Part shown: one piece after another, positions 4,140 through 56,769 of the stretch
Numbering within the stretch: the stretch's first letter is position 1
Layout: every line of letters starts with the position of its first letter
Assembly (NCBI RefSeq): GCF_000004825.1
Contig: NW_008805072.1
Location: forward strand, 1,556,435-1,620,434
DNA: 64,000 nucleotides
DNA from: Heterostelium album PN500
Lineage: Eukaryota; Evosea; Eumycetozoa; Acytosteliales; Acytosteliaceae
Direction of reading: 5' to 3'
Program-made: the position numbers and the translations under genes
Notes under the pieces: model-generated
The model's database searches: none
Told to the model about the DNA's origin: nothing
Seen by the model: the letters and a program-made list of their open reading frames with translations, nothing else

Positions 4140-7100
4140 ATGAAGTTATTTTATATATTTATTTTATTGTTATTTATAAAAATATTTAGTTATTACCCAA
4201 TATGTAGGTGATTTTAATTATAAATATTTTATCATTTAAATGGTTCATTATTAATTTGATAATTTTTACAAGATGGAGTCAATATATATTTAGCAGTGGA
4301 TGGAAAAGATGATAGAGATTGTCGACAATCTGATTCACCTTGTTATTCACTGCAATATGCTGCTAAACAATATAGTCAATACAGTAATTTAGATATATTT
4401 TTACGACCCGGTCATTATAATTATAGTGAATGCAATTTAGCTACTTTCACAAAAACCAATGTTACTATCCACGGAGGATATGGAGGTGGTGTAACCTTTA
4501 TTAAATTGGCAGAATCAGGAAATACGATGAAATTAACAAATTCACAAGTCAAGATCAATGATATTCAATTTATACATGCAACAGCCAGGGAGAATTCTAC
4601 AAAAAGAAATGTTTCTACACCAGATGTAAAAGTTAGAACCAATCCAGGTTCGAGTCACCAATTTAAAAATCGAAATCTAGATCAATCATTTTTTTTAACA
4701 GGTGCAGATTTTACTTTATTTAACTCCATCATATCATTTAATAATGTAGTAATTTTTAATAATACAAATAATAATTTGATATTTTCAAATGATAGTAAGT
4801 TTATTATTTTAAAATTAAATCTCTCTTTTTTTAATATTAACATAAATAAATTAGGTACAATAATAATTAATAATTGTAATATACAATTGAATAACTATCA
4901 AACTTTTTTGGATGTATCTCAATCACATGTAATTTTCAACAATACAAGGTTAATAAGTAATCAATTTACTACGATGATTACTGGAGATCGTTCAGATATT
5001 CTTTTTAATCGATCGACTTTTATATATAACATATCAGTTTATGGAATCATTTTAAGTAAGCATTTAATATTCTCCAACAAGCGAAAAAAAGAAAAAGAAT
5101 TTTACTAAATTTGCTTTTGTAATCATATCATTTTCTAAATCTAGCGAATTCACCACTAGAAATCAGAACATGTATATTCAAAGAAAATAGATCAGTAATA
5201 GGACAGTTTGTAGGTCTCGGTTCAAGAATAAGATGTGCAAATACACGTTTTATAAAGTGTGACGCGTCTGCAGCTTCAGGAATTGTATATTTAGATGATC
5301 AATCAGTTGGAGAGTAAATATATATAGGTTGAAACGGTTGTTATACAAGTATCATTATTGACTCTATTATTATTATTATTATTATATTTTAGATTTATAT
5401 TAAATATATTTGATGATAATTACTCGCCTGGTGGATCGATAGCAGGAAGTGCAGCACCGTTGTTATTGTTTGATAATTGTTGGTTCAACTCATCCTCACG
5501 TGTATCAGTGTTTATATCGATTTACTCTAATGGCCAATTGTATGTCTATGGCTGTGCATTCAATGATATCTATGGCATCTTGTTGTCAACCGATTCCAAT
5601 TCCATTATACTTGTATTGAATACTGTTTTCTCTTGTAAGTTTGTTTATTATAACATATGATATGATATGAAAGGGTAGAGTTTAATCCTTTTTGTAACTT
5701 CTATAACTATAGTTATTCAAGGTAGAATATTTGAATCATATGGTGCAGGACATGTAGTGTTTGCATCGATTGTCTATGATCATTGCGGGTCATTCGATCA
5801 GCTGAATCTTGTTTCCAATCATGTGACTGCTTTCTTCTACGATCTACGAGTGTTCTCATCTACTGTTGCTTCGTTCATCCAAACCAACTTTCAATCGTAT
5901 CTGGTTATAGTCCGAGGTTATTTCTACAACAATCAAGTATTAACCAGTATAGTCTCTTGTTACAACGGATATCAAGCATTTCTCAACGGTTGCATATTCT
6001 ATGGTACTGTTGGTTTCTATGTATGTTGATTCATTAATCCAATCCCACACCGCTATAATAACAACTAATAATAATAACTAATATATCACTAAACATTTTT
6101 CATTATTTTAGGGAGGAGCAGTATCGGAGTTGGATATCTCTGGAAATATTACAGTCATCAATAGTAGGATAGATAATAATGTTTCGCCAAATGGACCATT
6201 CATGTATTTGAAAGCGCCGAATGTTGATGAAATGCAGTGTTTGCCCAACACTTTTTTGAATAACACATTTTTCAATAACTATGCATTGACTTCTGGTGCA
6301 CTCGTTTACTACAGTACGACAGCGCTTCAATGTGATTTCACCTGTTACAATTGTATGCAAAGCAATAACACAGCTGCATATGGAGATCTCGTTAACAGTG
6401 AATATTACAACTTTACGATTTCAACTGCAGCGATTCTCTCCACGCCAACCACCACTCAGGTAGTCATTACTGCACTCGATGCCTTTGGGAATATTTACCG
6501 TGGCCACACCGACGTCATCTTTGAGATGACCTACCCCAATTGCACCAATATCAACATCACCGGAGTGAATCAAGTCACCATCAATCTCAATGGTACTCCA
6601 ATCATGTACAATCTCCTAGTCTCAGCGAAACCCGGTACCAGTTGCACCTTGGTTTTCACCTCGTCGCCAGCGGCGGTCACCGGCGATCTCACGTTTGATA
6701 TCTACGTGAAGCATTGTGCGAAAGGCCAGATAGAGTTTCAGACGCCAGGCGATTACCAATACTACTGTCTGAAGAAAGCGGGACTGTCATCGATAACTAA
6801 AATCACAATAGTAGCGATTGCAGCAGTTGTATTTTTAGCGACGGTGTTTTGTTTCATTTTGGTTTTCGTTCACCGACATAATCGACTCATCAACTATTCC
6901 AACCCTTACTTCCTGATGACCAATCTACTTGGATGTATGGTGTTGCTCGTTTCGATTATTCCCAACATGGTAGTGTCCAGTATTGCCTGTATAATCCGAC
7001 CGATTATCATCCCGGTTGGTTTCTTCCTTTGTGCACTCTCCATTATCGTTAAACAATGGAGTATTTGGGAGAAAAGAAAAGAACTTAACTTTCAAACTAA

Positions 7101-8503
7101 AAGAATGGTTTGTATTCATATTTAAATATATATAGACTATCTAACTAACTAACTAACTAACTAACAACCAACCAACCAATCGACTATTATTATCCATTAT
7201 AAATAGATGGAAACAAGTTATTTTTTTAAACGTTTGGCTATATTATTTATAATACCAGTGGTATGTATCTAATTAAATTCAATCAAATTAATAATAGGAT
7301 ATTGATTTTTATCTTTTGTTGTTTGGTATCACTATCTTTAGATTGCATTGATATTGAATACAGCACTTTCAAGAGCAACACCACAGTATGTTTTCGATAC
7401 AGTCTATAAGAAACAAATAGAACATGCATGTATCGCAAGTTTAGATTGGATTTACACTGTTTCACATTTAGTTTATCTCGTAACTATACTATAATCTCTT
7501 TTAGTAATTAATATTTTAAATACTTATCATCAACATTACATTATTACTCTTATATAATAGACATTATTATTGGTATATTGTAGTGTTTTAGTATATCTTG
7601 GTAGACCATATCGATCATCACCAGGAACATTTAACGAACCAACTTATATTGGAATATTAGTAATGTTATTTTTCTTTTAACTTTTCAAACCTAACTCTGC
7701 CTGCCTATCAATACTAATACTAATACATTTATTTTGTGTGTGCGTGTAGATCTATAATTATATATTGTTATTACTCATTTTGATTCCACTTAGATTTTCC
7801 TTTCCTTTCAGTTCGACTGCACACTTTTTAATTCTCTCGATTATCTCGATCGTATTCGTTGTCTGTACACTATGCGTATTATTTGTACCGAAATTCTATC
7901 TTTTATTCAGAAAAAGAAAAGTTTTATTAACTGTATGTATATTATATTAATATATTAGACTTATCTTATTGTCACTGTTGATTATTAATCAAATCAATAC
8001 TACATCTAATTTAGATGATGAAATTCATTGAAGAACAAGAAACACAATTGGAAAGAAACAAAGATATACTTCAATTCTATGAGATCTATGGTAACCAGTT
8101 TGGTCTTTTAAACTTTGCAAACAGAGACATTTTCACGCCTGATGCTCTATCACCACTAACACTGTCAGCTACTGACTTATCAAAACCTCCAAATACTGAC
8201 ATAACCAATAACAAAAGTAACAACAATAGTGATAATAGTGATACTAATTTTCCTATAAATGTACCAACACAAAATAATAATGGTAGTAACAATAGTAATA
8301 ATATCAGTAATGGAAATAATAGTAGTAGTAGTAATGGTAACCCTGTAGTTTTAAATCAAGATGACAATAATAATAATAATAATAATAATAACAATAACAA
8401 TAATAATAATAATAATGGAAAAAAGAAAAAAGGTAAAATTCGAAGGTTTTTATCAAGATCTACACCAAGTTCCCCATCTCCAGTAACAAAGAAAAGAAGA
8501 TAA
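4140..8503 (+). CDS. Class C (GABA-B/Grl-like) GPCR with beta-helix ectodomain, copy 1
   Basis: Twelve exons: 4140-4203, 4273-4794, 4855-5055, 5145-5313, 5393-5634, 5713-6020, 6112-7107, 7207-7260, 7342-7479, 7561-7659, 7750-7932, 8015-8503 (about 1,154 residues). A signal peptide (MKLFYIFILLLFIKIFSYYP) is split from the ectodomain by a phase-1 intron. The ectodomain opens with NIYLAVDGKDDRDC and continues as short Asn/Ile/Phe-rich strands of parallel beta-helix (pectin-lyase-like) type. A beta-sandwich-like segment around ALDAFGNIYRG and a Cys pair come before the membrane. The seven-helix part carries class C marks: NPYFLMTNLLG in helix 2, CIIRPIIIPVGFFL and KQW in helix 3, and FVPKFYLLFRKRK after helix 7. 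The cytosolic tail has DILQFYEIYGNQ, an Asn run and a basic Ser-rich end. Plasma-membrane receptor; ligand unknown. Confidence 0.8.
7141..7164 (+). repeat. (CTAA)n tetranucleotide repeat in an intron
   Basis: Six tandem CTAA units followed by CCAA-like units lie in the 99-nt intron between exons 7 and 8 of receptor gene 1. CTAA resembles a branch-point core, so the intron has several possible branch sites; no functional claim is made. Confidence 0.85.
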
Positions 8504-9414
8504 ACAGTTAGTTTTATAAGATAGATTAGATAGTTTTATTTATTAATTTCTTTCTTGATAATATGTTGAACAATACCCACTCTGTTTAAAATAAAATAAA
8601 AAACAAACACACATCACATTTATCTTTCTTATTTATTATAATCTCCATTGAGAGCTCTAATTTTAGATGATGTTTTAAGACAACCCACAGGTTCTTATAA
8701 AATGATGAATAAAACATCGTATGATTAAAATTTTTATTTTACACAAAATGGTCAAAGTGTGTAAATAAATTAAAATAAATGAAAATAGTCAACCACAAAA
8801 AAAACACACATATAAACTCACACACACACACACACACACATTACACCATTAAAATATATATATGTATAATGTTTTGGTAAATGTTTTGATGTGTGTCAAT
8901 ATTAATTATAGTATATTGATGTGTTGTTGTAAATATTATTGGTGATTCAACTATGTAACACAAAATCATTATTAGTTCAATATAAATAAACAACCATTTT
9001 TTTCAAAAGTTGTCGAAATATTGTTTTTGTTTTGTTTGTTTACAGTTAAATTTATAAGGTCAATGTGAGTGAGAGTGAAGATTTTAAATATTAATTTTCC
9101 AAAAAAAACAAAAATTAAAATATAATCATAAATCAAATTATTTCTTTTTTTTTTTTTCAAACACATATAATAAATAATACCAATATTATACCTTTTACCA
9201 CAATTTTTCATTTCTATTTCTATTTTTTTTTTTTGTATGTTGAAAAGAGAGAGAAATAAAAGTTCCAAAATTGATATACATACCCTAACTTTTCATTCCC
9301 TATCCATACATTTATTTTCATTGCAATTATAATAGTAGTTTATTTTATTTAAATATAGTTTCTTATAATAATAATTTTAATAGTATCAGTAATAGTGATA
9401 ATATCGCAAAGAGA
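8504..9414. other. Intergenic region between receptor 1 and the coiled-coil fimbrin-like gene
   Basis: AT-rich, with a (CA)n tract at 8818-8840 and T-runs at 9141-9235. No gene supported. Directly before 9415 the frame is open back to an AAATATAG (9351-9358) that looks like a splice acceptor, so a 5'-leader intron may exist here, but no upstream in-frame ATG was found. Confidence 0.55.
8818..8840. repeat. (CA)n dinucleotide repeat
   Basis: About eleven CA units in the 3' flank of receptor gene 1. It is a simple microsatellite. Confidence 0.9.
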
Positions 9415-12400
9415 ATGATTTCCAATCAAATTAAAAGTCAGATGAAACAATCAATAACATCATCAGTTGGGTCACCGACATCAGAATTTTCTCCTAATTT
9501 CAAAGGAAACAGTAATGCAAATAATAACAACAACAATAATAATAATAATAACAATCATTTGAATGGAGACTCAAATATGTCACCATTCAGTATATCAAGG
9601 AATTCTCATTTGAATTTCTCACCACCTATGTCACCAATGTCCTACTCGAGAGTGAATAACTCAAGTATTAATAGTAATAGTAAAACACCTCCCATTGAAG
9701 TTGTTTCTCAATTCAAAGAGAAAATGCAACAATTAGGTAAATTTACAATCTTTATTAAGAATGGAAATTTGTAAAACTAACTTTTTTTGGATGAATATTA
9801 AAATATTTTAGGATGGATTGGTACACCTAATATGGGTAGAGGTAGACAAAGATCGAATACGATGGCAGTTGATTCTCCTGGATCACCGAGTACACCTTAT
9901 AGTTTAATTAATACATTGGAGCAGGTTTCAAAACAATTGGACGAGCGTGAAAAAGATGTACAATTGGCTGCGGAAATTGGAAAGTTGTTACTCGAAAAGA
10001 ATAGTGAATTAGAATATCAAGTATCTCAACTATTCGATTATGAAAAGAAATATATTGATATATATTCACAGAATGAGGTTTTGAAAAATGTATATATTTA
10101 AATTTTTTTATTAAAAAACAAAAAGAAAAGAGAAGTAGTTACTAATTATTTTTTAAAATATAATATTAGCAAAATGAAAATCTATCATTCAATTTAAAAG
10201 AAGCTACTTTGGTGAATGAATTGATGGTAGACAAGTTGAATGAAGCCAACTTTGATTTGTCGAAATTTAAAAATCAACAACAATCTGGTAAAAAGTCGAA
10301 AAAATCAGCACAAGTCGATATTGATCTGCTCCAACGAGAATTACAAGAACTAAACTCAAAAGATCTATCAAGAGAGAAGAATCTTATTAAATTAAGATGT
10401 GATAATGGTAATGAAACAAATTTATATAAATATCTCTTATTATTGTTATACTAATAATCAAAACATAATAATAAAAATTACAGAATCGTTGACTGATAAG
10501 AATGAAAAGTTACAGAATAAAGTTAATGACTATGAAGAGTTTATCAAAGATTATAATCAAGTGAAAGAAAAGTATCAGTATTTAGTTGTAAAGAATCAAT
10601 CTTTATTAAGTTTAGCTAAGGATGTATGTGTTTTGTTTGTTTGTTTGTTTGTTTTACAATTTAAGAGTTATTTTGAATGTTCCAACTAACTAATGGTAAC
10701 ATTACATTACATTCTTTTAGATTGCAACAAAGAAATCTATTGTCGATGAATACAATATGATTAAAGAAAGTTTCGAAGTGTCATTGGAGAACATCATTAC
10801 GAATACCGCTACATCTAGAACATACGATGCTGAAGAAGAAGTCAAACTACTACAAGAAGCAAGAGAAACGATTGATAAACTAACTACAAAGTATGTTTTT
10901 GTTGTTTTTTGATTTTGATTTCATTTGTTTTTTTTTTTTGGTTGTAAACTAACATCATCAAACATTAACAGTGAAAATAGTAATTCAATTGTATTACAAT
11001 TGGTTAGTTTGTTAAAGGGAAAAGAAGATAATAGTTCAAAGTTCTTAGATGATGATGAAGCTATTCGGTTCAGTCTGGACGACGATGCCACCGAAGAAGA
11101 TCAAAAGTTATATCACGACAGTCAGCTAGCCAAACAAATAGAGATATCAACTCAGAATCTATCAAGAAGTTCTATTTTATTGGTAAGTTTTTATTTATTA
11201 ATCATTCTTTCATTTTAAGATTAATATTAATAGTGTTGTTATTGCTAGCTTATTGCATTATATATAAGTAATAAACATAAAGATCTAAATGATCAATTGA
11301 GTAGAAATATATCATCAATGTCAGAGTTGCAAGAGGATATCAAAGAGTTGACAGAGAAGCTTCAAATCAATACAAAGTTGAATGCCAAGTTGGAAATGGA
11401 TTCGCTGTCCAATCAAAATCTCATTGATGAACTACAGCAACAGACAGAGTCTCTACAGAATGAAATACAATCTCTCCAACAGAGTTACAATCAATTGCAA
11501 ACCGATAAACAAAAAGAGATTCAATTGCTACAAGAGGAATTGTCTTTTCAACATGATAATGATAGAGTATGTTGTTTTTAATTAATTAGTTTGTAATTTG
11601 ACCAAAAACTAGATATTTATTAATCATCATACTACTTCAATAATAATAATAATAATAATAGAAATATCAAACATTGGAAGAGAGATATCATAGAATGGAA
11701 CAAGATTACTTGAATCTTCAAAAGGATATGGAGAGACAGACAAATGATTTACAATCGTCGTGTGATGCATACAAGATTCAATTGGCAAATTTGAACAGAG
11801 AGAAGGAAGAGTGTGATTCGAAGATCGAAGAACTCGTTTCACAGATCAACAGTTCGAATGAAGTGAGCGGAAAGCAATCGGGTGAATTGGAATCAAAGAT
11901 AACCGAGCTACTAAAGGAGCTGGACGATTGGAAGGAAAAGAACAATCAATTAGTTCTCTGCAATGAATCTGCTATCGAAAAGATACGGTTAGATCATAAG
12001 CAATCTTTACAGTCTTTGGAATGCCAGCTTCAAGAGAAACAAAGCCTAATCGATACACTTCAACAGAATATCACAGAGTTGAACAACCAGCTAGTAGAGT
12101 TGAAATCTTTGAATGAAGAGAGAACCGCGAGATTGAAACAATTGGAGTCGACATCAGATGAAATGGCTAAAGTGAAAGACGACATTATTCAGCAACTCAA
12201 TGAAAAGATAAATCAACTGACACATGAGCTGCAATCGAGATCCAGTTCTGGTGATGAAGCAGCTTCCAAGATTTCATTGCTAGAGTCAACTATTGCCAGC
12301 TTGAGACAAGAGTTGGAGTCTGCCAATGGTGAGCTGGCGAAGCGCTCCACTTCCTACGAGGAGTCTGTCGCCAAAGAGAAGAGTTTGACTCTTGAACTTC

Positions 12401-14979
12401 GTTCTAAAGAGGAAGAGAATGAAAGACTTCAAAATCAACTACTTTCCATCAAATCATCGAGTGAAACCAGTATGGTTGAAATGGAATCGTTGCGATCACA
12501 AATCCTTGAGTTGGAGTCTACTCTTTCCGTTCGAAAAGAACTAGTTTCCAAGATGGAGAGTGATAAATCGACGTTGGAGAATCAGTTGGGCGAGAAGGAG
12601 AGAATGTTCAATGAGTACAGAGACGATACTCAAAAGTTGTTAAGTGACTATGAGAGTAAACTTAAATCAAAGGGAGAGGAGTTTGATTCACTGACAGAGG
12701 AATTGGAGTTGGCCAGACAACCAAAAGAGTGTTTGGATTGTCACAAACACTTGGAGCGTGGAAGAGTACTACAGAGTCAACTCAATGAATTTGAGACACA
12801 GATGGAGATGATGAAGAAGAGTCACAGCGATGAATTGACACGTTTGAATGAGAGAGAATGTCCTGGATGTCTGGAGCATAATCAGACAAAGAAGACTTGT
12901 GATGAATTGGTTGGCGTAGTTCAGACTCACAAGAAACAAGTTGAAGATATGAAACTGGCATTGGAGGCACTGAAGAATAGTTCCACTGTTTGTGAATCGT
13001 GTGTTGGTCTGCAACAGGAACTTGATGCTTTGCGTAAGGAACTTAACGAGTTGAAGCAATCCAAAGAGAGAGAGAAGCAGTTGGAAGAGGAGAACAATCT
13101 ACTAAGACAAGAGATGAAGAAGAGTCAGTCTGATTTCATTGTGAAGGAGAGTGAGTTGCTGAGATTGCAACTCGAGGAGCAAAAGAAGGTGGAGAAAGAA
13201 CAATCACTTCTCATTGAAATGATGGAGTCGAACAAACAACTTGAAGCCAAGCTGGCACAGGTTACTTCAAATGAAGTACTCGACAGTCACCAGTGCATAG
13301 ATGGCTCACTCACCGGCAGAGATTTAGAAATGATAAAATATATTAATGGACTGCTACCAAACCAACTCTCACTAACTTGCAAATACTGTGTAGCCAGTCA
13401 ACTTCGTGATGGATTTGTATTTTGGTATGTTTTAATCAATTTAATGAAAATCTATTATTATTAACATATCCTTTCCATTAAAAAACAAACAAATAGTAAT
13501 GTTGTAAATCATTTTATTGATGATGGTATTGATTCAAGAGCACTTCATAAACCACCATGTAATAAATCACATATGTCTCAGAATGTCAACTTAATTGTAA
13601 ACTCAATACAATCATATGGAGCCGATCGTAAACTTTCAAATCTAGATATAAATGTAAGAAAGAAAAGATGTTTTTACTATAATAATATTGTTACTAACCA
13701 TTTGGTAATGTTATTCTTCTACAGAATGATTTACTGTTATTTAAGCTTTTATTTGAAATTATTTATATTGGATTCCTTCAACGAGTGAATTTGAAGCATC
13801 ATCCTGAACTTGCTTATCTCTGGAAACACAATCCAGAGAAGAAACCCGATGACAAGAAAGAGAGTTGGGATAATTTCATTATGTTGGAACCGCCTGCCTA
13901 TCTGAAGAGATGGATCAATCACTACATGAAACAAACACATCAACCCCTGATTACCAATTTTACCAACATTGGCGAAAAAGTTTTATTATCGTTGTTCTCG
14001 CAACTCCATCCGGATTTCAAGGATAACAATAATATCGATGCAATGATGCTCTATTGCAAGGGAATCGGTTGTGGTCTAATTTCGCGTGACGATATAAATG
14101 ATGATCAGACCTCTCATTCGACTCTATTGTTTTTGGCACAGCTATTCGATAAGAACTCGGGAATCAGCTTGTCCATGGACAAGGAAACGATCGCCTCTGA
14201 CTCACCGGAGATCACCAGTGAAGAGAAAGCTGCCAAACAATGGTTAAAAACCGTGGATATCGCTGCTGCTAGCATGGATGATTTTAGAGATGGACTGTTA
14301 CTCTTGAGAGCTCTCGATCAAGTCTCACCGGGAATCGTTAATTGGAAGCACGTCAACACCAATCCAACCAATTTGTATAGTATGACAGAGAATTGTAACT
14401 ACTGTGTTAAACTAGGAAAAGATCTCAAATTCTCGTTGGTCGGTATTGCCGGTAAGGATTTCGTTGACGGACACAAAAAGTTCTTGCTCTCCTTTGTCTG
14501 GCAAATGATGAGATACAGTGTACTCCGTAAGGTAAATCTCAAAGGTAAAAACGGTAAAGACATCACCGAGGCTGATCTCGTATCTTGGGCAAACAATCAA
14601 GTCGCTTCATCTGGTTTCCATACGGCCATCAAGAGTTTCAGTGACTCTAGCCTGAAAGACAGTCTATTCCTCTTGGATCTCTTAGAATCGATTTGCAGAG
14701 GTTGCATTGATTCATCAAATGTTTTCACAAAGGATTTTGATGGTATGTTATTTCTATCATCACTTATTATTATAGTTTTCTTTCAACTAATTTTAATTTA
14801 AATATTTTATTTTTATAATTTTTTAATTAATAGGAGAATCTAGAAAATCAAATGCTAAATATGTAATTAGTGTAGCAAGAAGATTAGGTTCTACCGCTAT
14901 AATATTCTGGGAAGATATTGTCGAAGTAAAAGCTAATATGATCATGTTATTTATTCTCGATTTAATGTCACTAATTTAA
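9415..14979 (+). CDS. Coiled-coil protein with C-terminal fimbrin-type four-CH actin-binding core
   Basis: Eleven exons: 9415-9736, 9812-10089, 10170-10407, 10484-10623, 10721-10890, 10972-11182, 11249-11566, 11662-13424, 13497-13653, 13725-14742, 14834-14979 (about 1,586 residues). Residues 1-110 are Ser/Asn-rich. About 140-1090 is nearly continuous coiled coil with heptads rich in Glu, Lys, Leu and Gln. The last 480 residues match plastin/fimbrin throughout: CH1 (LRDGFVFW, NVNLIVNSIQSYG, VNLKHHPEL), CH2 (LKRWINHYM, CKGIGCGLISRDD), CH3 (FRDGLLLLRALD, KFLLSFVWQMMRYSV) and CH4 (NAKYVISVARRLG, EDIVEVKANMIM). Fimbrin bundles actin through two CH pairs. Here the N-terminal EF-hands are replaced by a long coiled coil, so a dimeric actin cross-linker or linker to another structure is inferred. 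Three CxxC motifs sit in the coil at near-equal spacing. Confidence 0.85.
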
Positions 14980-15092
14980 AAAAAAATAAAATTATTATTT
15001 ATTAATTAATATTGCACCACCAATCTATTGATGATCATATTCAAAAAAAAAAAAAGTAAATCAAAAATACACGTGTGATGAATATAAAATAT

Positions 15093-15127
<35 letters not shown>

Positions 15128-15270
15128 CAAACACTAACACAACTTTTTGTTTGAAAAGCAAAATGATATATTTATTGAAATTATTAATACTATCAAAAAA
15201 AACATACTATTTAATTATCTAAAACCATGATCGATCTGTTTAATATTTTTATTTAATTAAATAGTAATTA
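14980..15270. other. Intergenic region with (AT)n microsatellite
   Basis: Short AT-rich spacer carrying a (AT)n run at 15095-15123. It separates the fimbrin-like gene from the second receptor gene and must hold that gene's promoter. No other feature seen. Confidence 0.7.
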
Positions 15271-18200
15271 ATGAAATATTCTTTTATTTATTTATTATTT
15301 TTATTCTATTTAGGTATAAGTGTAGTTTGTAAGTTATTATTAAAATATGGTATCAAGATTTACTATTGTTTCATTAATTTTTTATAAAAAAAACAATCTT
15401 TTTTTAATAATAGATGGATTCGATATTTATCTTTCACCTAATGGAACAGATATAGATGGATGTGGAAGTTCGACAGGAAGTGCTTGTTTTAGTTTACAGG
15501 GAGCAAAACAATATCTAGTAGATAATAAAATAGTGATTTATAATGTGTTGATGGCTCCTGGTTATTATGATTACAGGTTTATTCCAATTTTGGAATTGAA
15601 TAATATCTATCTATTGGTTGTCAGTGGTGAGGCTGGAAGAGCGAATGAAACTATTATTACCATGTCAGACTCGGGGGAGTTCATTTCATTGTTCAAAAGC
15701 CTTTTAAGATTAAATCAACTGACAATAGCACATTCTACCATCGGAAAGGTGCCTTACAATAGAATAGTCTTGTTTCCGTCAAGCTTTGGCTTTGATTCTA
15801 TTCTTCTTACAATTCGACCAACTATTTCAGATTTCTATCTTCAAAATTCAACATTAATAGTAGATAATGTAACATTCTTTAATAATACTAGAAAATTATT
15901 AATTTTGGCAGAAGGGAGTAAGTTTTAATTTTGGTATTAAATTTATATTTTTCTAACATAATTTATAAAGGTTTATTTGTATTTAGAAATTCGACTATTC
16001 AGAAAAATATTTATGATGTTCTATTCGAGTTCACTGAATCATCAGTTTTATTTACTGGACCAAGAATTATTAGTAATAGTCTTACTTTAGCTATCATGAG
16101 TGCAAATGACACCTATATTACTCTGAATCGAGCATTATTCATTTATAATTATTCAATTTATGGAATTATTTTTTGTAACTATTAGATTTTATTCTCTGTT
16201 TTTAATCATCTATTAATTTTTTTCTGACTATAGATGAAACCTATTTTTATTTAAACTCCAGCAGAATTCAAAATAATGTCTCAAGAATAGGTATTTTGAT
16301 TTCGATAAACTCAAAGATAATACTTCAGAATTGTATAATACAAGAAAATATATCCAGTACATCTTCAGGCATTATATATATTTCAGAGACAAGCTCAGGA
16401 TAGTAAGTTAAAAACAATAAGAACAAGATTAGAAAAAAAGAATTTTGTTAAGTCTATTATTACTTATTTTAAATAGTATAAGTACTTGTATTATAAATGG
16501 GAATTTTGGTCCTTCAGTATCTGATATTGGTACTGCATCAACTTCGTATGAAATAATGTTAACAATATTTTCCAACTCTTCTGTGAATCAACATTCAATT
16601 TCAATGTATGACTCTGGATCTTTAACAATTCAAGATTGTGCATTTTTCAATATCAACGGAACAATAATTAGATCTGATTCTAGAGTTAGTGTAGTAGTTA
16701 TGTACACCTTGTTTCACGGTATGTATGTTAATATTTTTGCAAAAATTATAAACTAATTTCCAATGTTCTTAATTTTTAGATATTGACGGAGTAGCTTTCG
16801 ATATTGATGGTGGTGGATTTTTATTGATGATTTCAAATTTCATTAGGGACTGTACCAGTAGAGATGCACTCTTTAGATTTACGGATAGGGCATACTTTCT
16901 GGCTGCAGGTCTTATTGTAATATCAACAAAATCATCTAAATTGATATCAGCTTCGATGGAATCGAAAGTGTATCTTTATATTTGCTATTTTGAAAACAAT
17001 GAAGTCGATAATGGTCTTATTTATGGCAAAGAGCTTTATCAAATCTATTTAAGCTCCAGCATTTTTCAACACAATACAGGAACTACTGTAAGAATTTTTT
17101 ATTGACTAATTATTATGTTATAATCGTGAGTTTATTAATTTTTTAAAATTTTAGTTGGAAGGTTTAATATCATTGGATCAAACAGGTGTTTTTGTGGCAG
17201 AGGTTACAAGAGCAACGAATAACTATGCACCGTATGGTACATTTATTACCTATCGAGAATTGGACGATGGTGGACAAAATAGAACGTGTATAAGTGAGAT
17301 CGACTCATCAACATTCATAGATAATCGAGCTTGGATTTCAGGTGCAACCGTTTATTATATGACACCCGATATAATTTGCAAAGTAATATTTAACAACTCT
17401 CATTTCATCAATAGTACTTCTACCTTTGGTGGCAATATAAATAGTTACTACAATAACTTCTCGGTGATATTGCCGCGTATCTTGGACACACCAGAGGTGA
17501 TCCAAGTCAGTATTGCGGCATTCGATGCGTTTGGAAACGACTATAGAGGTTCCAACGAAATTTCATTCTACGTTCAGGAGAGATGTGACAATGTCAACAT
17601 AAGTGGAATCCAACAGGTCTCTTTGACGCCAACGGGTAAATCGATTATGTATAACATTGAAATTAGTGGATTTCCCGGTACCTCTTGTGACCTGATATTT
17701 ACATCGATTCCGCCGGCACGTACTGGCCCTCTGGCCTACAACATCATCATCATACCATGCAAGAAGGACTATAAACCGTATGCCTACCAAGGAAAATACT
17801 ATTGTTTGAAACAAAGAGATATTTCACACACCTCGATTGTTGCATTTTCAGTTTTAACTGCTGTTCTAATGGCTATCACCTTGGTGTTTGGAATAATGAT
17901 ACTCGTATATTGGAAGAATATTATGATTCAACATTCGAATCCCTACTTCCTCCTCACAGTTATCGTTGGATTACTTTTTATAGCTGCTTCAAACTTCTTA
18001 CTCTTTGGAACAAGTACATTCTCTTGCATAGGAAAATTGGTGGCTGTTCCAATCGGTGTCATCCTATGTGTAAATCCTGTAATCATCAAAGAATGGAGAA
18101 TATGGAAAACAAGAAAAGATAGTTATTTCGAACAGAAATCAAATGTAATTACTACTTAATTTAAGTTAATCATGCCAAACACCTACTAATTTATTGTTCT

Positions 18201-19436
18201 TTTTATATTATTATTATTTAAAAGTTGGAAACATTCTTTTTATTTAAATGGCTAATTATTCTCTCTATTATACCAATTGTAAGTTATTATTATTATTATT
18301 ATACAATATTATATATTTATTCTTACTAATAAAATGAAATAAATTAAAATTTAGATTCTACTTATTGTTAATGTTGCAGTTTCTAATTCGAAACCAATGT
18401 ATGTCTATGATATCGATAAGAGAGAGGTCAGTCATGTTTGCTCTAATCCTGAAGGCTGGGTCTATATTGTAATAACTTTGGTATACTTGATGATATTACT
18501 GATGATTTGTTGTGCATATGTTTACATGGGAAGGAGATATCTATCATCACCAGGATCATTTAATGAACCAACTTATATTGGTATATTAGTATGTATCTAG
18601 CTAAATAGACTTTATAGTTACTAGAGTATATTAATCATCATTTTAAAACAATAGATCTACAACTATATTATATTAATCATTGTATTCATTTCATTGAGAT
18701 TCTCATTCCCAAATAATTACAATGCACAATATATCACCACTGCAAGTGTAGATTCTGCATTCATACTATGTACTCTTCTCCTATTGTTTTGTCCCAAATT
18801 CTATGTAATACTAAGAAAACGTCATGTTGTTCTTTCTGTGAGTTATCACTTTCACTATAAAGCATTAAAGTATAATAATATATTAACAAACAATTGATAT
18901 AAATTTAGTTAACGAAATTCATTGAATATCAAAAGAAAGAATTAGTAAGAAACAAAGATATCTTGCAGTTCTACCAGATGTATTGTAATGATCAAGGTCA
19001 ATTGAACTTGGCCAATCACGATATATTCACACCCGATACACCGGCACAACCGACGATCATTCCAGACTCCACTTTATTTACATCGTCATCTGTAGACAGT
19101 ACTTCACCGCCATCACCATCGTCATCATCTTCATCTTTAACAACTAAAAACAAAAAATCGAAATCCAAAACTACAAACAACAATATCTATAATAATAATA
19201 TTTCTCATTCTATACCAGATCCAAACAATTTAAATTTACCTCCTATTATTAGTGATGCCAATGATAACAATGTAATTAATAATGATAACAATGTAATTAA
19301 TAATAATTACAAAGCTAAATCAACATCTGAACCATCATCACCATTTTCATCATCTTCATCATTAGATGAGATATTCGAGTCTCAAAATAATAACATCGTC
19401 AATCATTCTAAAAAAAGAAAGAAAAGAAAAAAATAA
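15271..19436 (+). CDS. Class C (GABA-B/Grl-like) GPCR with beta-helix ectodomain, copy 2
   Basis: Eleven exons: 15271-15328, 15414-15917, 15971-16174, 16234-16402, 16477-16718, 16780-17087, 17155-18144, 18225-18278, 18355-18588, 18655-18837, 18909-19436 (about 1,157 residues). The ATG at 15271 was chosen because it gives a signal peptide (MKYSFIYLLFLFYLGISVV) and the same phase-1 intron as copy 1. The ectodomain begins FDIYLSPNGTDIDGCGSS and continues as beta-helix strands, then AFDAFGNDYRG, FPGTSCDLIF and a Cys pair before helix 1. Class C marks are NPYFLLTVIVG, IKEWRIWK and FCPKFYVILRKR. The tail shares DILQFYQMYCND and DIFTPDTP with copy 1, then turns Ser/Asn-rich and ends in a Lys/Arg cluster. 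Exons 4, 5, 6 and 8 are exactly as long as in copy 1; one copy-1 intron (7480-7560) is absent here. Confidence 0.8.
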
Positions 19437-23481: not shown

Positions 23482-26400
23482 ATGAATATACAAAGAATGT
23501 TGGTTAGGTGGTGGAGTTCTACTTTTATTATACTTCTGTTTTTGGTGTTGGCTATATATATACCGACACCTAGCCTGGCCATTGAAGTTCAGTCGTCGGT
23601 GGTCTCTGAGAAAAGTACAAATGTAGTTGGACTCGATATGAATTTTGCATTGATGGAGGTGACTTTTGACAGTGATCTCTACATGCTTCAATCGATAAGT
23701 TGCTCCAATTTCACATGTGAAACACCAGCCATCGATTGTACCTGCGACTACACTAGCACATCGCGATGTGGACAAACCGTGTCTGGCAATCCTTCGTGTC
23801 CTGCCTGTCCAACCAACACCACTGCACACTATGGCAATGAGGAAGTTATATACCAACTGTGTGACTATGTCAACAAACCCTGGATACCAATTGAAGCCAA
23901 CCGAACCTACAGCTATGAAAATATTCAAGGACCTCTAGCTTTCCGTTATAAAGCTAATACATCATATTGCGAGGGTATAAGAGTAATGTATCAAATTTCA
24001 TATCGATTTGAATGAAAATTAAACCAATTTTCTAATTAATTTATTATTACTGTGTTTTATTTTTAGTTATATGCATCACAAGAACAAGGTAGTTTTATTT
24101 TGTTTGCAAATACAGATAATACAGAAACTGGAAGAATGATTGGATATGAAAACCCATATCTAAATAATATTTTGAATATCTGTCCAACCGATAATGTCGA
24201 CTGGGCCAATGTGTTGGTGTGGACCAACGATACTTATTTCATTTCTATAATTCCCACGACGCAATCTATTTCTTTTTCTTTGTCTATTTTTTCTGCGCCA
24301 ATTTCAAAGCCATTGCCAACTGCTCCAAAATGTACAGATCTCACAACCGATCACAAATGTATTAACGATGGAGAACTTATTACTGGCCAATCACATATTA
24401 GCGAACAGCCAAATTTCTACACATTTGTAGTGGACAGGCCAATGAATCTATCGATTGGTTGTCCAGCACTTCAAGAGGATATAGATTTCTTTATTTCCGA
24501 TGATCCGAGTGAACCTTATCCAACAGCAATCTCTCAAAACATTAAATGGGTTTATAATCATCCAGGTAAGAAGAAAAGATAATCAACTTTTTCAAAAGTT
24601 ATTTAGTTTGCTTTTTTCAACACAGAGAAGAAAATTAATTTTAATGTTATTTTTCAATATTTACTTAGTTGATGACTATGTTACTTTGGCTATTGGTCCC
24701 TATGAGAATGGAACTAAAAAAATATTATATATTTCGATTGTTCCGTATTATCCTTCTAACTATTCATGTTCTGTTACCAGTTCAGCACAGATCTGGCCAA
24801 TATCGATTGTAAATAATTCACCGAGCGGTGGAACCTACAATATTATGGGCACAGCCAGACTGTTGTATCCCGATGGTTCGGTTACACGTAGTGACTATTG
24901 GGAGAATACCAGAGCATTTTTTGTATCCTATCCAAGAGTGAACATCAATCCATTGTGGCCAGTACCCTATGTACTAGAGTCGTTCGATCTCTTCAAAAAG
25001 ATCAACTTTTTCGAAACTCTACAATTCAACGACAATCAAAATCCACCAAAGAATCACACATTCCAAGCCGCTTTTATTCTATCGTACCGTGAAGACTCCT
25101 TAGTTATTCACAGTGATATCAACACAATCGTTGGATCGAAGCTTCAATTTTTAAATACATTAGTTGATTCCAAAGGAAATGTAAGTAATAGCATTGTTTC
25201 ATGAATTTTAAAGACTCTACTAACAAACAAAACATTATTACATTTTAATTTATTAGCCAGTTGATATTACAGTTGGATTCCAATTGAATAATTCAAAATG
25301 TGATTATGATCAATTCAATCAGGTGTTGGATCTAATCAAGTCAACAGAGAGTCAGATTTTCAATTCGAAATCGTATGCAGAGGTATCGACTTTGAGATAC
25401 ATGATCGATATCTACACACTTAGAGATGCTTGGGTTGGTTGTATGGGTCAAGCCAATGATCTTCTGCAAATAGAAACAGTGGACACCAATCAGCTATCGA
25501 CTATCTGTACCTATACACCAAGCGATCCAGAGTATCAATTGGACCCATGTTGCAATTCCACTCGTCAATTCTTCCAGTGTTGTATACCACGTAATGTGAC
25601 TGTGCCAACCAAGAGTTTCGTTGGTGTCTACAATAACTTGGTCGATCAACAGTGTTCCAGCTATGGTTGTACCGTATCGATTCTCGATGATTACTACAAG
25701 TCTTTGACCGATGTGGAGGACGGTGCCTGTGCAATTAGCTATGCAGACTACCAGGAATTCCAATCGAGCATTGCCAACACACTGCGTTCTTGTAAATATG
25801 TATACGATCGAATCAGTTGTGACAACGACTCGATGTGTGGAAACGGTACCACATGCAATCTATACTCTCGTTACTGTGAACCAAGTAGAATAAGCCAAGA
25901 CTATGCTTACATCGATTGTGTTTTGAATTCCAGTTCGTCTGCAACCATCTACTTCCTCAAGAGCCAAAATCATTGGTCGACAGTAGATGATCTTTACAAT
26001 TCATTCTTGTCGGACGATTGTGTTTATCATTCTGGTAATTTCTATCGAACTAGATACACCTATGAAACAACAGCGAACATCTCGCTGTGCTATCCACCAC
26101 CGTCATGTGTCGATGAGACTTGTGAAGTCGAACACGATGTCTGCTACGATGGTTACTACGGTGGTTATCGTTGGACCAAGAATCAATACTCTCCAGAGAT
26201 GTGTGAGCTTAACACTTTGTGTCCTTGGATAGAGTGTTTGAATGACGACCCAACTTGTGAACAACAATGTAATACAAAGACCCACTATTGTGGTCATTGT
26301 TCGAATAACCAGACATTCTGCCATTACATCCCCGATTACAATTCTGAAGCTACCTGTAAAGATAAACAGGTTTGTTTGTTGCCAAATGGTGACTACCAAG

Positions 26401-28832
26401 TTGGAAAGACAGCAACTGAATGTGCAGCACTAGGTAGATGTACTCAAGCTTGTGGAAAGAAGTGTGTTGGTCCATCGAAAGTTTGTATTGCACCAGCGAT
26501 CACTCAAGCCAATTGCGTGGATGCAAACGTTCCATTTGCCAACTGGAATTCAACGTTTGGTTATTGTTACAACAACTACACTCAGGCACAATGCACAGGC
26601 ACCAAATTCAAGTGGTTAAACTGTCCTGCTTTGGCGTCATCTGAATGCAAATACCAAGTGTTAGGAAACGATATGTGTGCCGTAGAAGACATACCTTGTG
26701 CAACCGAGCAACAATGTACATCGAAAGGAGGTTCATGTTCTGACAGCTACTTCTTTGACCCAGCGAACGTATTGAACTATCCACCTGGAATAGGTAAATG
26801 TGTACACGGACACTACGCCTACTTCAGTGAGAATACACTACCGACTTGTAACTATGAGAATGAACACGATTCTCCAAGAGGATGTTTCTCTGCAGTTCCT
26901 AAAGTCTATACCAAAACGGATTGTTTGAAATTGGGTAATAACTATACATGGTGGGAACAATCTACAAACAAGACAACTTGTGAGTCGTATTTCGGTTGTA
27001 AGATACCAGATGATGCGCCATTCAGTGCTCAGAATCAACATCGTTTCAATGAGATGACCGAAGAACAATGTGGTCATTGCGATAGTAATCACGAGTGGTC
27101 TAAAATGTTTCAATGGACACCGGCACGATGGTTGCCAGGTGTACTAAAGACTGTGCAATGGTTGCCTGCTGCACCTATCAACGTAACATCTTGGGAGCCT
27201 GCTTTCGACTTGGAAGCATTCTCGGAAGCTATGAGTAATGCTTACTACGGTCACGTCGTAGATCTTCTACGTTCTTCAGCTATGTGTAGAATGGAACGTC
27301 TGCAAGAAACCTTGAGTTCGATTGCCTGCAGTTGTTCAGGTCCTGGTGGTTCACAATGTTTTACATCGTCGGCAATCCTACTGGGTACAACTCAAGCGTG
27401 TGCTCTCGATTCATCTATATTCAAATTCTCGCTCGGTCATCTCATTTTCAATCCAGATTCCGTACCGAGTTCATGTAACAGTGTCATTGTCTCACAGATT
27501 AGTAAGCAGCTATTCAAGGCAACGACAACCACCTCACTTAGTTCCGATTTCGTATCCTACAAGAAACCCGATAACTATGCAATCTATAATTCACACGGTG
27601 GATTAATTGGTTCGTTATTGAATGACGGTATCAAAGTGCAAGCTACCGGTGTCAATAACTACGGTGTGTGTCTTCAAGCCGGTGAGTTGTCTTCACAGTT
27701 CGAGTACTATGACTTTGCTACAGAGAGCGTCAACGATTCCAGTGTATTGGTACCTGTAGATGCAGAGATAACTGCAACCATTAGAGAACCTGGTTCACCT
27801 GTAATGATTTGTGCCAACTTCTCTGCACCCTATCAATCGTATTTCCCAATTGTACGTGTTGCTAATTGGCGTGACGTTCAAAAGGAGATATTCGATCGAT
27901 CGGCAACAGCAATGATCTACACACTCGGTGCTATCTTTGCTTTGAACGCACTCTGGGGAATCATTCAACTTGGAATGGTACTCTACAAAGTGATTTACAA
28001 TATCGATCGATTCAAGCTGGTACACTTGTTAATTGCCACCGTTACTTTGTTCATAACGATTAGAGCGATCTACTTCTTTATGTTACCAAGTGGTAAACTA
28101 TCGCAATCGGGTATTGCCGACTATATCTTGGTTGTATTGCCAACCTTTATTTACTTTACATCGTTCTCTATCATTGTTGTATTGTGGTACGTCATCGTAA
28201 GATCTAAACTCAGTAACAACATTCTCTCGAAATTCTCAACGATGATCGGTGTAATCAATATCATCCTCTACGTATTGTTTATCATTATTATATTGGTGTT
28301 TAACTTCTCGGAACGAAAGTATTCCAACGATTGTGGTGCACGTCTCGTCGTTGAGCAAACCAACACAACACCACAACGTATCGTATCGATATTCTATGCT
28401 GTGGTACAAGCTGTCATCTCGCTTATTATCGGAGCTGCATTCGTTTATCTTGGTGGTTCGATCTACTTGATGATGAAGTTCAGAAAGAGTGTAACCACCA
28501 GCGAAAGCGGATCGGAACAACAACAACGTATCTTCTTGGTGACACACACCTGTTCGATTGGTTTCATCTTGCATTGCGTATTCGTATTGATCTTGGTCGC
28601 TGCCAACCCATCGAATATCGTATTCAGCTTCGTTGGTCTCATAGTGACTGAGATCATCCCGGTCATGAGTATTCTCTACTCTTACAACCAAGGTCATCTC
28701 GGTGGTATCCGTCAGAGTACCAACACAACCAGAATGGCTTATATCACACCTTCGAAAGAGTCATTCACAACCCAAAGAGATACTTCAATGAAGAGCAGCA
28801 GCACAACATCAATGTCATCAATGATGCGTTAA
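23482..28832 (+). CDS. Large Cys-rich receptor-like protein with C-terminal TOM1/TOM3-like 7TM domain
   Basis: Four exons, 23482-23982, 24067-24565, 24669-25180 and 25257-28832, give 1,695 residues. The ATG at 23482 leads into a signal anchor/peptide (about residues 10-35). The next 1,350 residues are extracellular-looking: many N-glycosylation sites and dozens of Cys, with a dense Cys-rich part at about 660-960. From about 1,387 to 1,650 there are seven hydrophobic helices separated by short basic loops. The segments FKLVHLLIATVTLFITIRAI and VVLPTFIYFTSFSIIVVLWY fit the THH1/TOM1/TOM3 pattern (first helix pair, then Leu-Pro and an aromatic helix ending in Trp). The cytosolic tail is short and Ser/Thr-rich. 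A seven-helix surface protein is well supported; a receptor role and the TOM1/TOM3 relation are inference from pattern. Confidence 0.7.
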
Positions 28833-32159: not shown

Positions 32160-33790
32160 ATGAATGATAAATCATTATTATCATTAAACTTTGTTACTAT
32201 CCTTGATATATTCAAGTTAATAAAGTCGAATGTAGATCAAATATCTTTATTGTTCACTTGTAAATACTTTTATTATCATAAAAGTAGATTATTAACTTTA
32301 AAGTTTTATTCATCTCATTCCTTTAAACAACATTGTCTACTAAGAGATACAATTTCTATACTATATGAGAAACATGTAGCTGAAATAAAAACAAATGATG
32401 CTGCTAATATGTTTTCAATATACTTATCCAAAACATCAGAGGATGAAAAGTTTATTTTATCAAAAAGTATGTATTTAATACAAAGAAAACCATAGTAAAC
32501 ATTTGTCTAATACTATTGTTATATGTAGATGGTAGAAATAGAGTAACTGTATATATAAATAATAAAAATAATAATGATATGAAGGAAATAGAAACATTAT
32601 CAAAGGTATATAATACTCTAAAGATTAAGGATAACCTCCATTCCACATTGAAATCTTTGAACTCCATCGAAAATGCTGAGATCAGTAAAAGATTCACTGC
32701 TACCCTAACCGAAGGAATGTTACCATCGAATCTAAAGAAACTGTATATCAAAGAGAATACCGTCATTGGAGTAAACAGTTTACCAGAATCATTGCGATCT
32801 CTTCGATTGGGTGTTTACTACGGTCATGGATTAACAATTGGAATGCTGCCAAAGTATCTGACTACCTTGAGGCTGATGTCACCGATGGTGTTGGTACCTG
32901 GCCTACTTCCACAGTCCCTTCAGAAATTTGAATACGATACAACCTTTAATATCACTATAAATAGATCCATTCTTCCAAACAACCTTAAAGTATTGATCGC
33001 AGGACTATCTATGAAATTCGAGGCCGGCGCCATTCCATCATCAGTCAGGAAATTCGTAAGCTCCGCTCACTTTGATATCGAGGCATTTGAAAATCCCAAT
33101 ACCCTAGAAATTTTACAGTTCTCACCATTATTTAACGATCCTATAGGGCCAGGTAGTCTACCAATGAATATCAAAGAGTTGATATTTGGCCGCTTCTTTA
33201 ACCAACCAATTGAACGTGATGTCATTCCATCTAACACCGAAACCGTCATATTTCATTGTTTCCAAGCGAAAACCGTTCTCCACCCAAATATTTTTCCAAA
33301 CTCTGTAAAAACCATTGAATTTTATCAAGGTTTCAATGAACGTTTAACAAATGGAGTACTACCATCGACATTGCAGACACTCGATTTGGGTCAATGTTTC
33401 AACCAACCTATTTTACCATTGTCTCTCCCGAATAGTTTGAAACAATTAGTGTTTGGAACCTCATTCAATCAGCCATTAGTACCACACTCTTTGCCGTCCA
33501 ATCTTGAGTTGTTGAATCTAGGTGGCTATAATCATAGAATTATCAAGGGTACAATACCATCTTCTTTAACTCAACTCATTTTTGGTTATGATTTTACCGA
33601 CTACAAAGAAATGGTTCACAGTGTCAGATCGATTGCCAAGTCTTTACCAGAGAATCTCAATCGCTGGAAAATAGAATCATACAATCACGATGTTGTTATT
33701 CAAAGAATATCAAATAATCATTTATTACTTCAAACTGAAAGTTTGACTTTTGGTGGATTTTTAAAAATTGAAGATGATCAACTAGATTAA
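32160..33790 (+). CDS. FNIP-repeat protein, second gene
   Basis: Exons 32160-32466 and 32529-33790, phase-1 intron, 522 residues. The N-terminus (LLSLNFVTILDIFKLIKSN, LLFTCKYFYYHKSRL) is F-box-like and lines up with the start of the minus-strand FNIP gene. From about residue 175 onward are degenerate then better FNIP repeats, the clearest being LIFGRFFNQPIERDVIP, LDLGQCFNQPILPLSLP and LVFGTSFNQPLVPHSLP. Early repeats have lost the Phe-Asn-Gln core. Likely a cytosolic adaptor; function unknown. The two FNIP genes have their single intron at comparable places, before the repeat domain, which suggests common descent. Confidence 0.9.
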
Positions 33791-39390: not shown

Positions 39391-40443
39391 ATGACACCTT
39401 TTTCAGAGAGTAATGAAAGTGGTGGTGTTGGCGGTGAAAGTACGGTAGTAGATGGTAACGCTGACGGCGGTGGCATGGTGGCGGGCAATGGCAGCACTCT
39501 TGACATCGGCTCGTCGAATCAAGCTACCACTGGTTCGTCTTCATCGTCATCGACACCCATCAGTAAGCCACTCTCAATTCCATCGCCATCAGGCGGTGGC
39601 AGTGCAGCAACCAGCTTAAACTCATCGACAGGAACACCCAACCCATCGACTTCGCCACCCCTCTCCGACATCGAGCAGTATCTCAGTGCCTACAGCTCGG
39701 ATCTGCCAGAGCTGGTTGTAGCCGCCTGTTGGTGGGCAGACTCGCTCGCAAAGCTCAACAATCATATACCGAAAGACAACATCAGACGCTTCCGCAAAGA
39801 GCTGATCATAGGTCTCCGCGATCGCACCAAAGGACATTGGTATCCGGACAATCCAGAACGTGGCCAAGGATACCGTGCCGTCGTATGCGAGGAGACCACT
39901 GACCGCCTCTTAATTGATGCCGCCAAGCGCTCCGATATTCACGGTGAATTTAGATCTTTCTTTAAACAAAATACAACAATGTGGATCGATCCTGGCAATG
40001 TAACATATAGACATGGCAAACATTATGAAAAGACATTATACCCATTCAACAGTAACAGTAGCAGTAGCAGCAGCAACATCAGCAGCTCCTCAATGCAATA
40101 CAGCAACGGCAGCAACAACAGCAGCTCCTACACCAGTAACAATATAAATAGTAGTAATAGTAACATATATTTCGGTTCCAATGGCATCAATAATTCCATC
40201 TTGAACCAAGTCGTCAATCAGACACCTCCACGCCAGAATGTAACTAGAATCTCCTCTCCATCATTATCCTCCCTTGCACCCGTCTTTTCACCCTCCTCTC
40301 CATCTGTATATCATCCCCACCTTTCACAATCACCAACTGTTTCGCCACCAACTTCACCAGCCAAAGATCTTCAAAACTCCAATGTATATTCTTCTTACAA
40401 CAACTACACCAACAGAGGTCCAATAAAAATTTACCAACCATAA
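39391..40443 (+). CDS. BTG/TOB family anti-proliferative protein
   Basis: A single exon of 350 residues. The first 85 residues are Gly/Ser/Thr-rich. The BTG/TOB domain spans about 90-215: ELVVAACWWADSLAKL, IPKDNIRRFRKEL, GHWYPDNPERGQGYRAV (the diagnostic Gly-His-Trp-Tyr-Pro box), then TTMWIDPGNVTYRHG (the Trp-Ile-Asp-Pro box). The rest is Ser/Asn-rich and Pro-rich, ending RGPIKIYQP. In animals these proteins bind the CCR4-NOT deadenylase CAF1 and slow proliferation; mRNA decay or growth-arrest control here is inference from the domain. TOB-like long tails also occur in animals. Start at 39391 is the first ATG in a frame with coding composition. Confidence 0.92.
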   Translation: MTPFSESNESGGVGGESTVVDGNADGGGMVAGNGSTLDIGSSNQATTGSSSSSSTPISKPLSIPSPSGGGSAATSLNSSTGTPNPSTSPPLSDIEQYLSAYSSDLPELVVAACWWADSLAKLNNHIPKDNIRRFRKELIIGLRDRTKGHWYPDNPERGQGYRAVVCEETTDRLLIDAAKRSDIHGEFRSFFKQNTTMWIDPGNVTYRHGKHYEKTLYPFNSNSSSSSSNISSSSMQYSNGSNNSSSYTSNNINSSNSNIYFGSNGINNSILNQVVNQTPPRQNVTRISSPSLSSLAPVFSPSSPSVYHPHLSQSPTVSPPTSPAKDLQNSNVYSSYNNYTNRGPIKIYQP

Positions 40444-55339: not shown

Positions 55340-56720
55340 TTATTTCGTTATTATTAAATTATTAATTATTTCCCATTCATTGTTTTTCATCTTTACCAAA
55401 ATCTTTTCAAAATATTGATTTAGTTTATCATTTGATTTTAGTAATTTTACAAAAGTATTATTATTATTATTATTTGATTGTAAATATTGATTGAATTGTT
55501 TAATTATTAATGATTGATTATGTATGGTATAGTCTGAGAATCTTCTTGACAATCCACACCATTTGTAAAAGGAATTCTGCAGTCGTTTCGAAGTACATTG
55601 TTCTTTGATGACCTGTTGTTTCAACGATTTACCAGAGTCAAGGAACCCATTGATCAATCGATCGATACTCCCAACCAATCTCTTTATACTATTGAAATAA
55701 CTTATATCTTGATTCGAAGGTATCAATATATCGATATTACAATTTAATGTTTGATTGTTATCTTCTTCTTCTTCTTCATCTTCTTTTTCGTTCAATGAAA
55801 TCAAAGGTTGATTTAAATAGTCAGATAATAGCGCTTTATCTTTTTGCAGTACCAACTTTTCTAAATACCTTGATAGCTTGCTGTTTGATTCTATTGTTTT
55901 TTGTATCGTATTGGTAGTTAGTTGTTGTGGATGAAATGATGGTGTTGTTGGTATTGTTGGTTGTATAGTATTGTTAATATGATGATCATTATTATTATTA
56001 TCTTGTTGTTTTGTTGTTTTCAATATGATGGATAGTGACAGTTGAAATAAAAGATCGATAAAGTAATCTGGTATTTCGAAATAATTGATTTCACCATGTG
56101 ATATTCTATCTCTGATTCTCGGTCCTTCTTGGTACATCAGAAGATCCAACAGTGCCAAAACAATGTCTTTTCCAAGAATTCGATACATTTGATTTTCAAA
56201 TTCAATTAATTTACATTCATTTGTCTGTTCCTCCGTTACTACTTTTCCTTCTTTTCCTTCTTCTTGTTGTTGTTGTTGTTGTTGTTGTTGTGATAATTTA
56301 CTATATTTTGGATCTTGATATTTATAGTATGGTTTGGTGGTATTACCTTCCAAAGAAGACGATGCAGAAGAAGATTGTGAAATTTGAAGTTGTTGAGACT
56401 GCGACGATTCGTTTAGAGTAAGTTTGTCAGATAAGAAGATGTCAAGTGTAGTGTAGTAACTAAGATAGTCGGCATTCAGGAATCGTTCTGACAGCTTGTT
56501 ACACTCTACAAACAGACAACGAAGAGAATGTTCAAGTTGTGGAAGTAGCAAAACTAATGAGAAGTATTTATAATATTTAGAGTTGTCGTTGTTGTTGTTG
56601 TTGTTGTCTTTCTCTAATTGTAATTTAGACATTTGGTAATATTTGAATGATTGTAACCATATTGAATGTCTACCTTTAACTATGAATTGTTCATTCATTA
56701 TTAGTAGTTTTTCAAATATC

Positions 56721-56769
<49 letters not shown>

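Follow-up and report, generated by a model that had tools for sequence, protein, structure and literature searches.

Two genes in a 64,000-nucleotide stretch of Heterostelium album PN500 DNA (contig NW_008805072.1, positions 1,556,435 to 1,620,434 of the forward strand; hereafter the window) probably encode paralogous family 3 (class C, GABA-B-like) Grl receptors of the GrlP/Q/R-like kind, in which a long right-handed parallel beta-helix replaces the Venus-flytrap/Bmp domain. The word "probably" applies here to the receptor family and the fold. Gene A (4140..8503, 12 exons, 1154 amino acids) and gene B (15271..19436, 11 exons, 1157 amino acids) are both on the plus strand. The ATG of gene A is located at 4140 and the stop codon of gene B ends at 19436, which are exactly the outer coordinates given in an earlier note on this DNA.

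Seven-Helix Domain and Probable Beta-Helix Ectodomain

By sequence, both proteins are class C (family 3) G protein-coupled receptors. The Pfam 7tm_3 profile was matched over nearly its full length in A (residues 728–979, E-value 5.2e-32) and in B (residues 718–969, 2.8e-33), far over the curated cut-off in both. The best solved-structure match by sequence was GABA-B subunit 2, with an E-value of 8.9e-8 for the query including the ectodomain and 3.6e-8 for the seven-helix part alone. Since the best-scoring solved structures are GABA-B subunits, the label "GABA-B-like" used in the earlier note is right.

The earlier note had also placed a beta-helix ectodomain on this class C domain, and three lines of evidence agree with it. 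First, when the ectodomains were scanned in isolation with the Pfam Beta_helix profile, whose curated cut-off is 25.9 bits, A scored 30.8 bits (best stretch 294–375) and B scored 25.2 bits (251–381), just under the cut-off; in the full-length scan the best stretch of B was 353–504. Thus, of the Pfam search, the 7tm_3 part held for both proteins but the Beta_helix part for the isolated ectodomain of A only. None of the four shuffled sequences scanned, out of eight generated, had a Pfam match at E ≤ 1. Second, a 23-residue period runs across residues 24–611. Third, an AlphaFold model of residues 23–262 of A is a beta-helix; its best structural matches are polysaccharide lyases (50 match rows), and its VIA-align rows include the SRRP entries 5nxk and 5ny0 and the autotransporter entry 7akv. 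Coils of about 22–25 residues, as in a right-handed parallel beta-helix, are thus predicted for residues 23–262 of A by the model, and the basis for the fold beyond residue 262 is Pfam and periodicity only.

A Venus-flytrap or BMP-like fold, which the earlier note had named as the outcome that would speak against a beta-helix, did not appear. Neither ANF nor Bmp was matched in A or B in the Pfam scans at E ≤ 1, and the nine Bmp matches in the genome all lie away from both genes. Venus-flytrap folds are also missing from the 50 structural match rows of the A model, which alone excludes nothing. By Pfam, A and B therefore appear to lack a flytrap-type (Venus-flytrap/Bmp/ANF) ectodomain, and residues 23–262 model as a beta-helix instead.

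Several results nevertheless weigh against the beta-helix assignment. In full-length scans, Beta_helix falls under the cut-off in A (16 bits) as well as in B (19.3 bits); the paralogues C27 (22.1 bits) and C12 (13.6 bits), like B, stay below it, and the partial sequence of a further paralogue, C3, has no Beta_helix match. When the genome was searched in six frames with Beta_helix (E ≤ 0.01), no exon of these five genes was among the matches. Chlam_PMP, a 19-position repeat model, was not matched in A or B (E ≤ 1), and none of its eight genome matches (E ≤ 0.01) lies at a class C gene. Both six-frame searches score single frames without splicing. A profile search of the Protein Data Bank (PDB) with the five ectodomains returned no beta-helix; the single match had an E-value of 0.37, which is at chance level. 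The A 23–262 model, which includes 20 residues of intron read-through, is itself of moderate quality, with a mean predicted local distance difference test (pLDDT) score of 60.3 for the best model and 52.4, 44.1, 43.8, and 33.9 for the other four, and with Foldseek it gave no match at E ≤ 0.001, the best being 0.019. Structure prediction thus bore out the beta-helix for residues 23–262 of A but not for residues 503–737, whose model has a mean pLDDT of 33 and leaves the fold unproved both for the DAFGN segment and for the C-terminal stretch of the helix.

A Family of Five Genes

The genome search with 7tm_3 gave at least 17 matches, which were grouped into 15 genes. Nine have a Bmp match 0.3–0.8 kb upstream, five (A, B, C27, C12, and C3) constitute the beta-helix family, and the remaining one (C24:568521), which has no Bmp match, is outside this family. 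In a tree of the seven-helix domain, the five family members are split from the other genes by a branch with support 100/100. The tree has 12 rows, the five members and seven of the remaining ten class C genes (left out were L003 and two more genes with Bmp), and a long-branch warning attached to it counts against the grouping. Given this fully supported split, the simplest reading of the sequences is that, among the genes tested, the ectodomain goes back to a single acquisition and that A, B, C27, and C12 were amplified afterwards. The models of C27 and C12 end before the terminus of the tail, while that of C3 covers 747 amino acids of a longer gene and was used only where reliable. C3, on the minus strand, is the fifth and more diverged member with a longer unmodelled N-terminus; as a guess, it is perhaps the GrlP counterpart.

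Across the whole genome, Beta_helix has 35 matches (E ≤ 0.01), for example at C10:567–589 kb (some clustered), C7:1069–1070 kb, C2:1450 kb, and C32:201 kb; several are in frames of 1300–1580 amino acids, and none lies at a class C gene.

The segment between the beta-helix and the membrane is conserved in the family. The DAFGN motif is found in A, B, C27, and C12, and reads DYFGN in C3. Four cysteines of the segment (residues 646, 680, 704, and 721 of A) are invariant in all five members. The best Pfam E-values for the segment were 0.13 (DUF7822) for A and 0.11 (Big_7) for C27, with none for B; NCBIfam, scanned with A and B, had no match at E ≤ 1. The model of the segment, at the low pLDDT given above, consists of strands only. 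The beta-sandwich that the earlier note saw in this segment is a putative fold, which Pfam, NCBIfam, and AlphaFold did not establish.

What the Ectodomain May Do

In the proposed mechanism, the beta-helix would form about 25 coils (590 residues, 23 per coil) projecting from the membrane. Its long face would bind an extended ligand outside the cell, the most plausible candidates being a glycan or a cell-surface polymer. The DAFGN segment, with its cysteines, may serve as a stiff linker, like the cysteine-rich domain of other class C receptors, and ligand binding would alter the packing of the seven helices and activate a heterotrimeric G protein. That A and B sense a glycan or polymer is proposed tentatively, because the fold is kin to carbohydrate-acting proteins and because sequence divergence is faster in the ectodomain, where A and B are identical at 178/572 aligned residues (31%), than in the seven-helix domain, where they are identical at 122/265 (46%).

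This faster divergence is also explained by adhesion, which weakens the argument. The beta-helix might be an adhesive or stand-off scaffold, as are the beta-helices of autotransporters or SRRP, touching other cells or bacteria, and the receptor might be triggered by this contact or by tension, with no free ligand. Such a role, which competes with the ligand step only, would suit the SRRP and autotransporter entries among the structural matches and the 17 and 18 N-glycosylation sequons within the first 740 residues of the two proteins. However, adhesin-specific Pfam families have no match in A or B, a common fold says nothing on function, and fast divergence is equally compatible with a ligand-binding sensor; I regard the scaffold as somewhat unlikely. 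A receptor-tethered enzyme, in which the ectodomain would work as a polysaccharide lyase or hydrolase, is very improbable; polysaccharide lyases are indeed the best structural matches, but at the level of family signatures none of the five family members matches the pectate lyase, pectinesterase, or GH28 families of Pfam (E ≤ 1), and the NCBIfam result mentioned above points the same way.

One may speculate further that class C receptors with a beta-helix form their own branch of pattern-recognition receptors in amoebae, in which extended glycans, bacterial or developmental, are read along the solenoid and the signal is passed on via the cysteine-bearing linker, although this is unlikely as it stands. 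If true, it would be a ligand-sensing principle that I did not find characterised for a class C receptor in the open-licence PMC literature. Activation of class C receptors is usually explained by closing of the flytrap, a movement that a solenoid ectodomain would not make, so the receptors would need another activation principle. The accessible parts of the literature on beta-helix class C receptors give neither a ligand nor a structure.

Gene Structure and Neighbouring Genes

Genes A and B were each spliced by hand into a single open frame, and every intron is GT-AG (11 introns of 60–99 nucleotides in A, 10 introns of 53–85 nucleotides in B). The exons of gene A are 4140–4203, 4273–4794, 4855–5055, 5145–5313, 5393–5634, 5713–6020, 6112–7107, 7207–7260, 7342–7479, 7561–7659, 7750–7932, and 8015–8503. 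Those of gene B are 15271–15328, 15414–15917, 15971–16174, 16234–16402, 16477–16718, 16780–17087, 17155–18144, 18225–18278, 18355–18588, 18655–18837, and 18909–19436. Gene A has one extra intron (7480–7560). In a homology-guided check with protein B as the query, all 11 hand-placed introns of gene A were returned. The N termini of both proteins begin with a hydrophobic segment, which in A is encoded by exon 1 (4140..4203) and is signal-peptide-like, as judged by hydropathy only. Exons 2–6 of A with their introns (4273..6020) carry most of the ectodomain (residues about 22–502), read here as the right-handed beta-helix. Exons 8–12 (7207..8503) encode the remaining class C domain and an asparagine-rich, low-complexity cytoplasmic tail.

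The fusion itself, claimed in the earlier note, is carried by exon 7. In A (6112–7107, residues 503–834) and in B (17155–18144), a single open frame runs through this unbroken exon from the last part of the ectodomain across the DAFGN segment and into the first transmembrane helices, and the exon's counterparts in C27 and C12, elsewhere in the genome, are 987 and 984 nucleotides long. Exon lengths of 169, 242, 308, and 183 nucleotides are the same in A, B, and C27, and two others are nearly equal (201/204/201 and 996/990/987 nucleotides). The C12 model has exons of 201, 308, 54, and 183 nucleotides in common, besides one of 245; the 169-nucleotide exon appears there as 70 + 99, the extra intron being either real or a splicer error. 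Since exon 7 is uninterrupted in A and B and is kept in the two paralogues, a false join is very unlikely, and the sequences indicate that the beta-helix ectodomain and the class C domain are encoded as a single gene. The idea that the models wrongly merge a secreted beta-helix protein with a neighbouring short class C receptor has next to no chance of being right and was rejected, given the continuity of exon 7, the retention of most introns in the paralogues, and the recovery of the 11 introns of A from protein B.

The earlier note called A and B a tandem pair. They are two related receptor genes, but they are not strictly adjacent: between them lies an unrelated gene on the plus strand (9415..14979, ends approximate and unspliced), encoding a coiled coil followed by calponin-homology domains. 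A strictly tandem duplication is ruled out by this gene.

Close to both receptors, a frame of 1182 amino acids (25284–28832) encodes another large-ectodomain multi-helix protein, in which a THH1/TOM1-3 membrane domain (Pfam E-value 1.9e-10) comes after a cysteine-rich portion that is likely extracellular. A frame of 950 amino acids (42650–45502) has SdrD_B-like domains (E-value 7e-15), named for bacterial surface proteins. The window also contains FNIP repeats (32516–33790), a BTG domain (39391–40443), a DUF4209 domain (55340–57223, minus strand), and ketoacyl synthase domains (60497–61834).

Comparison with Known Receptors

The architecture is of a known kind, already in print in social amoebae and gut fungi as far as the accessible text of the reports goes. 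In D. discoideum, GrlP, GrlQ, and GrlR were described in 2007 as lacking a Bmp domain and having a region homologous to the Chlamydia polymorphic membrane protein (Pmp) (PMC1885808). Among about 100 class C receptors of gut fungi reported in 2016, approximately 30% have a pectin-lyase fold, PbH1 repeats, and/or an EGF-like domain, and putative carbohydrate binding was proposed for them (PMC5168858). The suggestion in the earlier note that the architecture is undescribed is therefore not supported, and its picture of the known class C receptors as bearing Venus-flytrap or periplasmic-binding-like ectodomains is too restrictive, because receptors without Bmp had already been published. The available parts of a 2023 study give 15 family 3 receptors for P. 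pallidum, list PbH1 among the abbreviations without naming the receptors concerned, and report amplifications in groups 2 and 3, those of grlQ/grlR being restricted to groups 3 and 4 (PMC10445921). From the equal counts, 15 here and 15 published, A and B are very probably catalogued already, and because the grlQ/grlR amplifications are confined to those two groups, the pair may have arisen by amplification within its own lineage. Since the same study describes dictyostelid family 3 clades 8–11 as having no recognised domains, a firm beta-helix assignment would be a modest, testable addition. The words "pectin" and "beta-helix" do not occur in the accessible part of PMC12716839, nor do "pectin" and "helix repeat" in PMC3251606. 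As a weak lead, grlQ is tabulated among the responses to P. aeruginosa, its values for two strains being 0.77 and 0.98 (PMC2474670, as far as accessible); grlB and grlJ are named as candidates in the accessible part of PMC2443395.

Judged by sequence, A and B share with GrlP, GrlQ, and GrlR a dictyostelid class C domain, the lack of Bmp, and a long N-terminus. Chlamydia Pmp is a beta-helix. In the accessible text of PMC1885808, the N-terminal region of GrlP, GrlQ, and GrlR is compared to a bacterial surface protein, and their lengths are 1407, 1095, and 1604 amino acids vs. 1154 and 1157 for A and B. In contrast, its Table 1 gives them no signal peptide, while A and B begin with a hydrophobic segment, and it reports the Pmp homology, by a method unstated there, while Chlam_PMP is not matched in A or B. 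The gut-fungal receptors, as described in the available part of PMC5168858, resemble A and B in joining a beta-helix-type ectodomain with putative carbohydrate binding to a class C domain, but they are fungal, and some have EGF-like domains, for which A and B have no Pfam match. The Bmp-bearing Grl receptors (for example GrlJ and GrlL/Far1), nine of which are encoded in this genome, belong to the same seven-helix family but have an ectodomain of the periplasmic-binding-protein type. Finally, the seven-helix domains of mammalian GABA-B receptors rank by sequence with the closest that have been solved, whereas the ectodomain of these receptors is a Venus flytrap.
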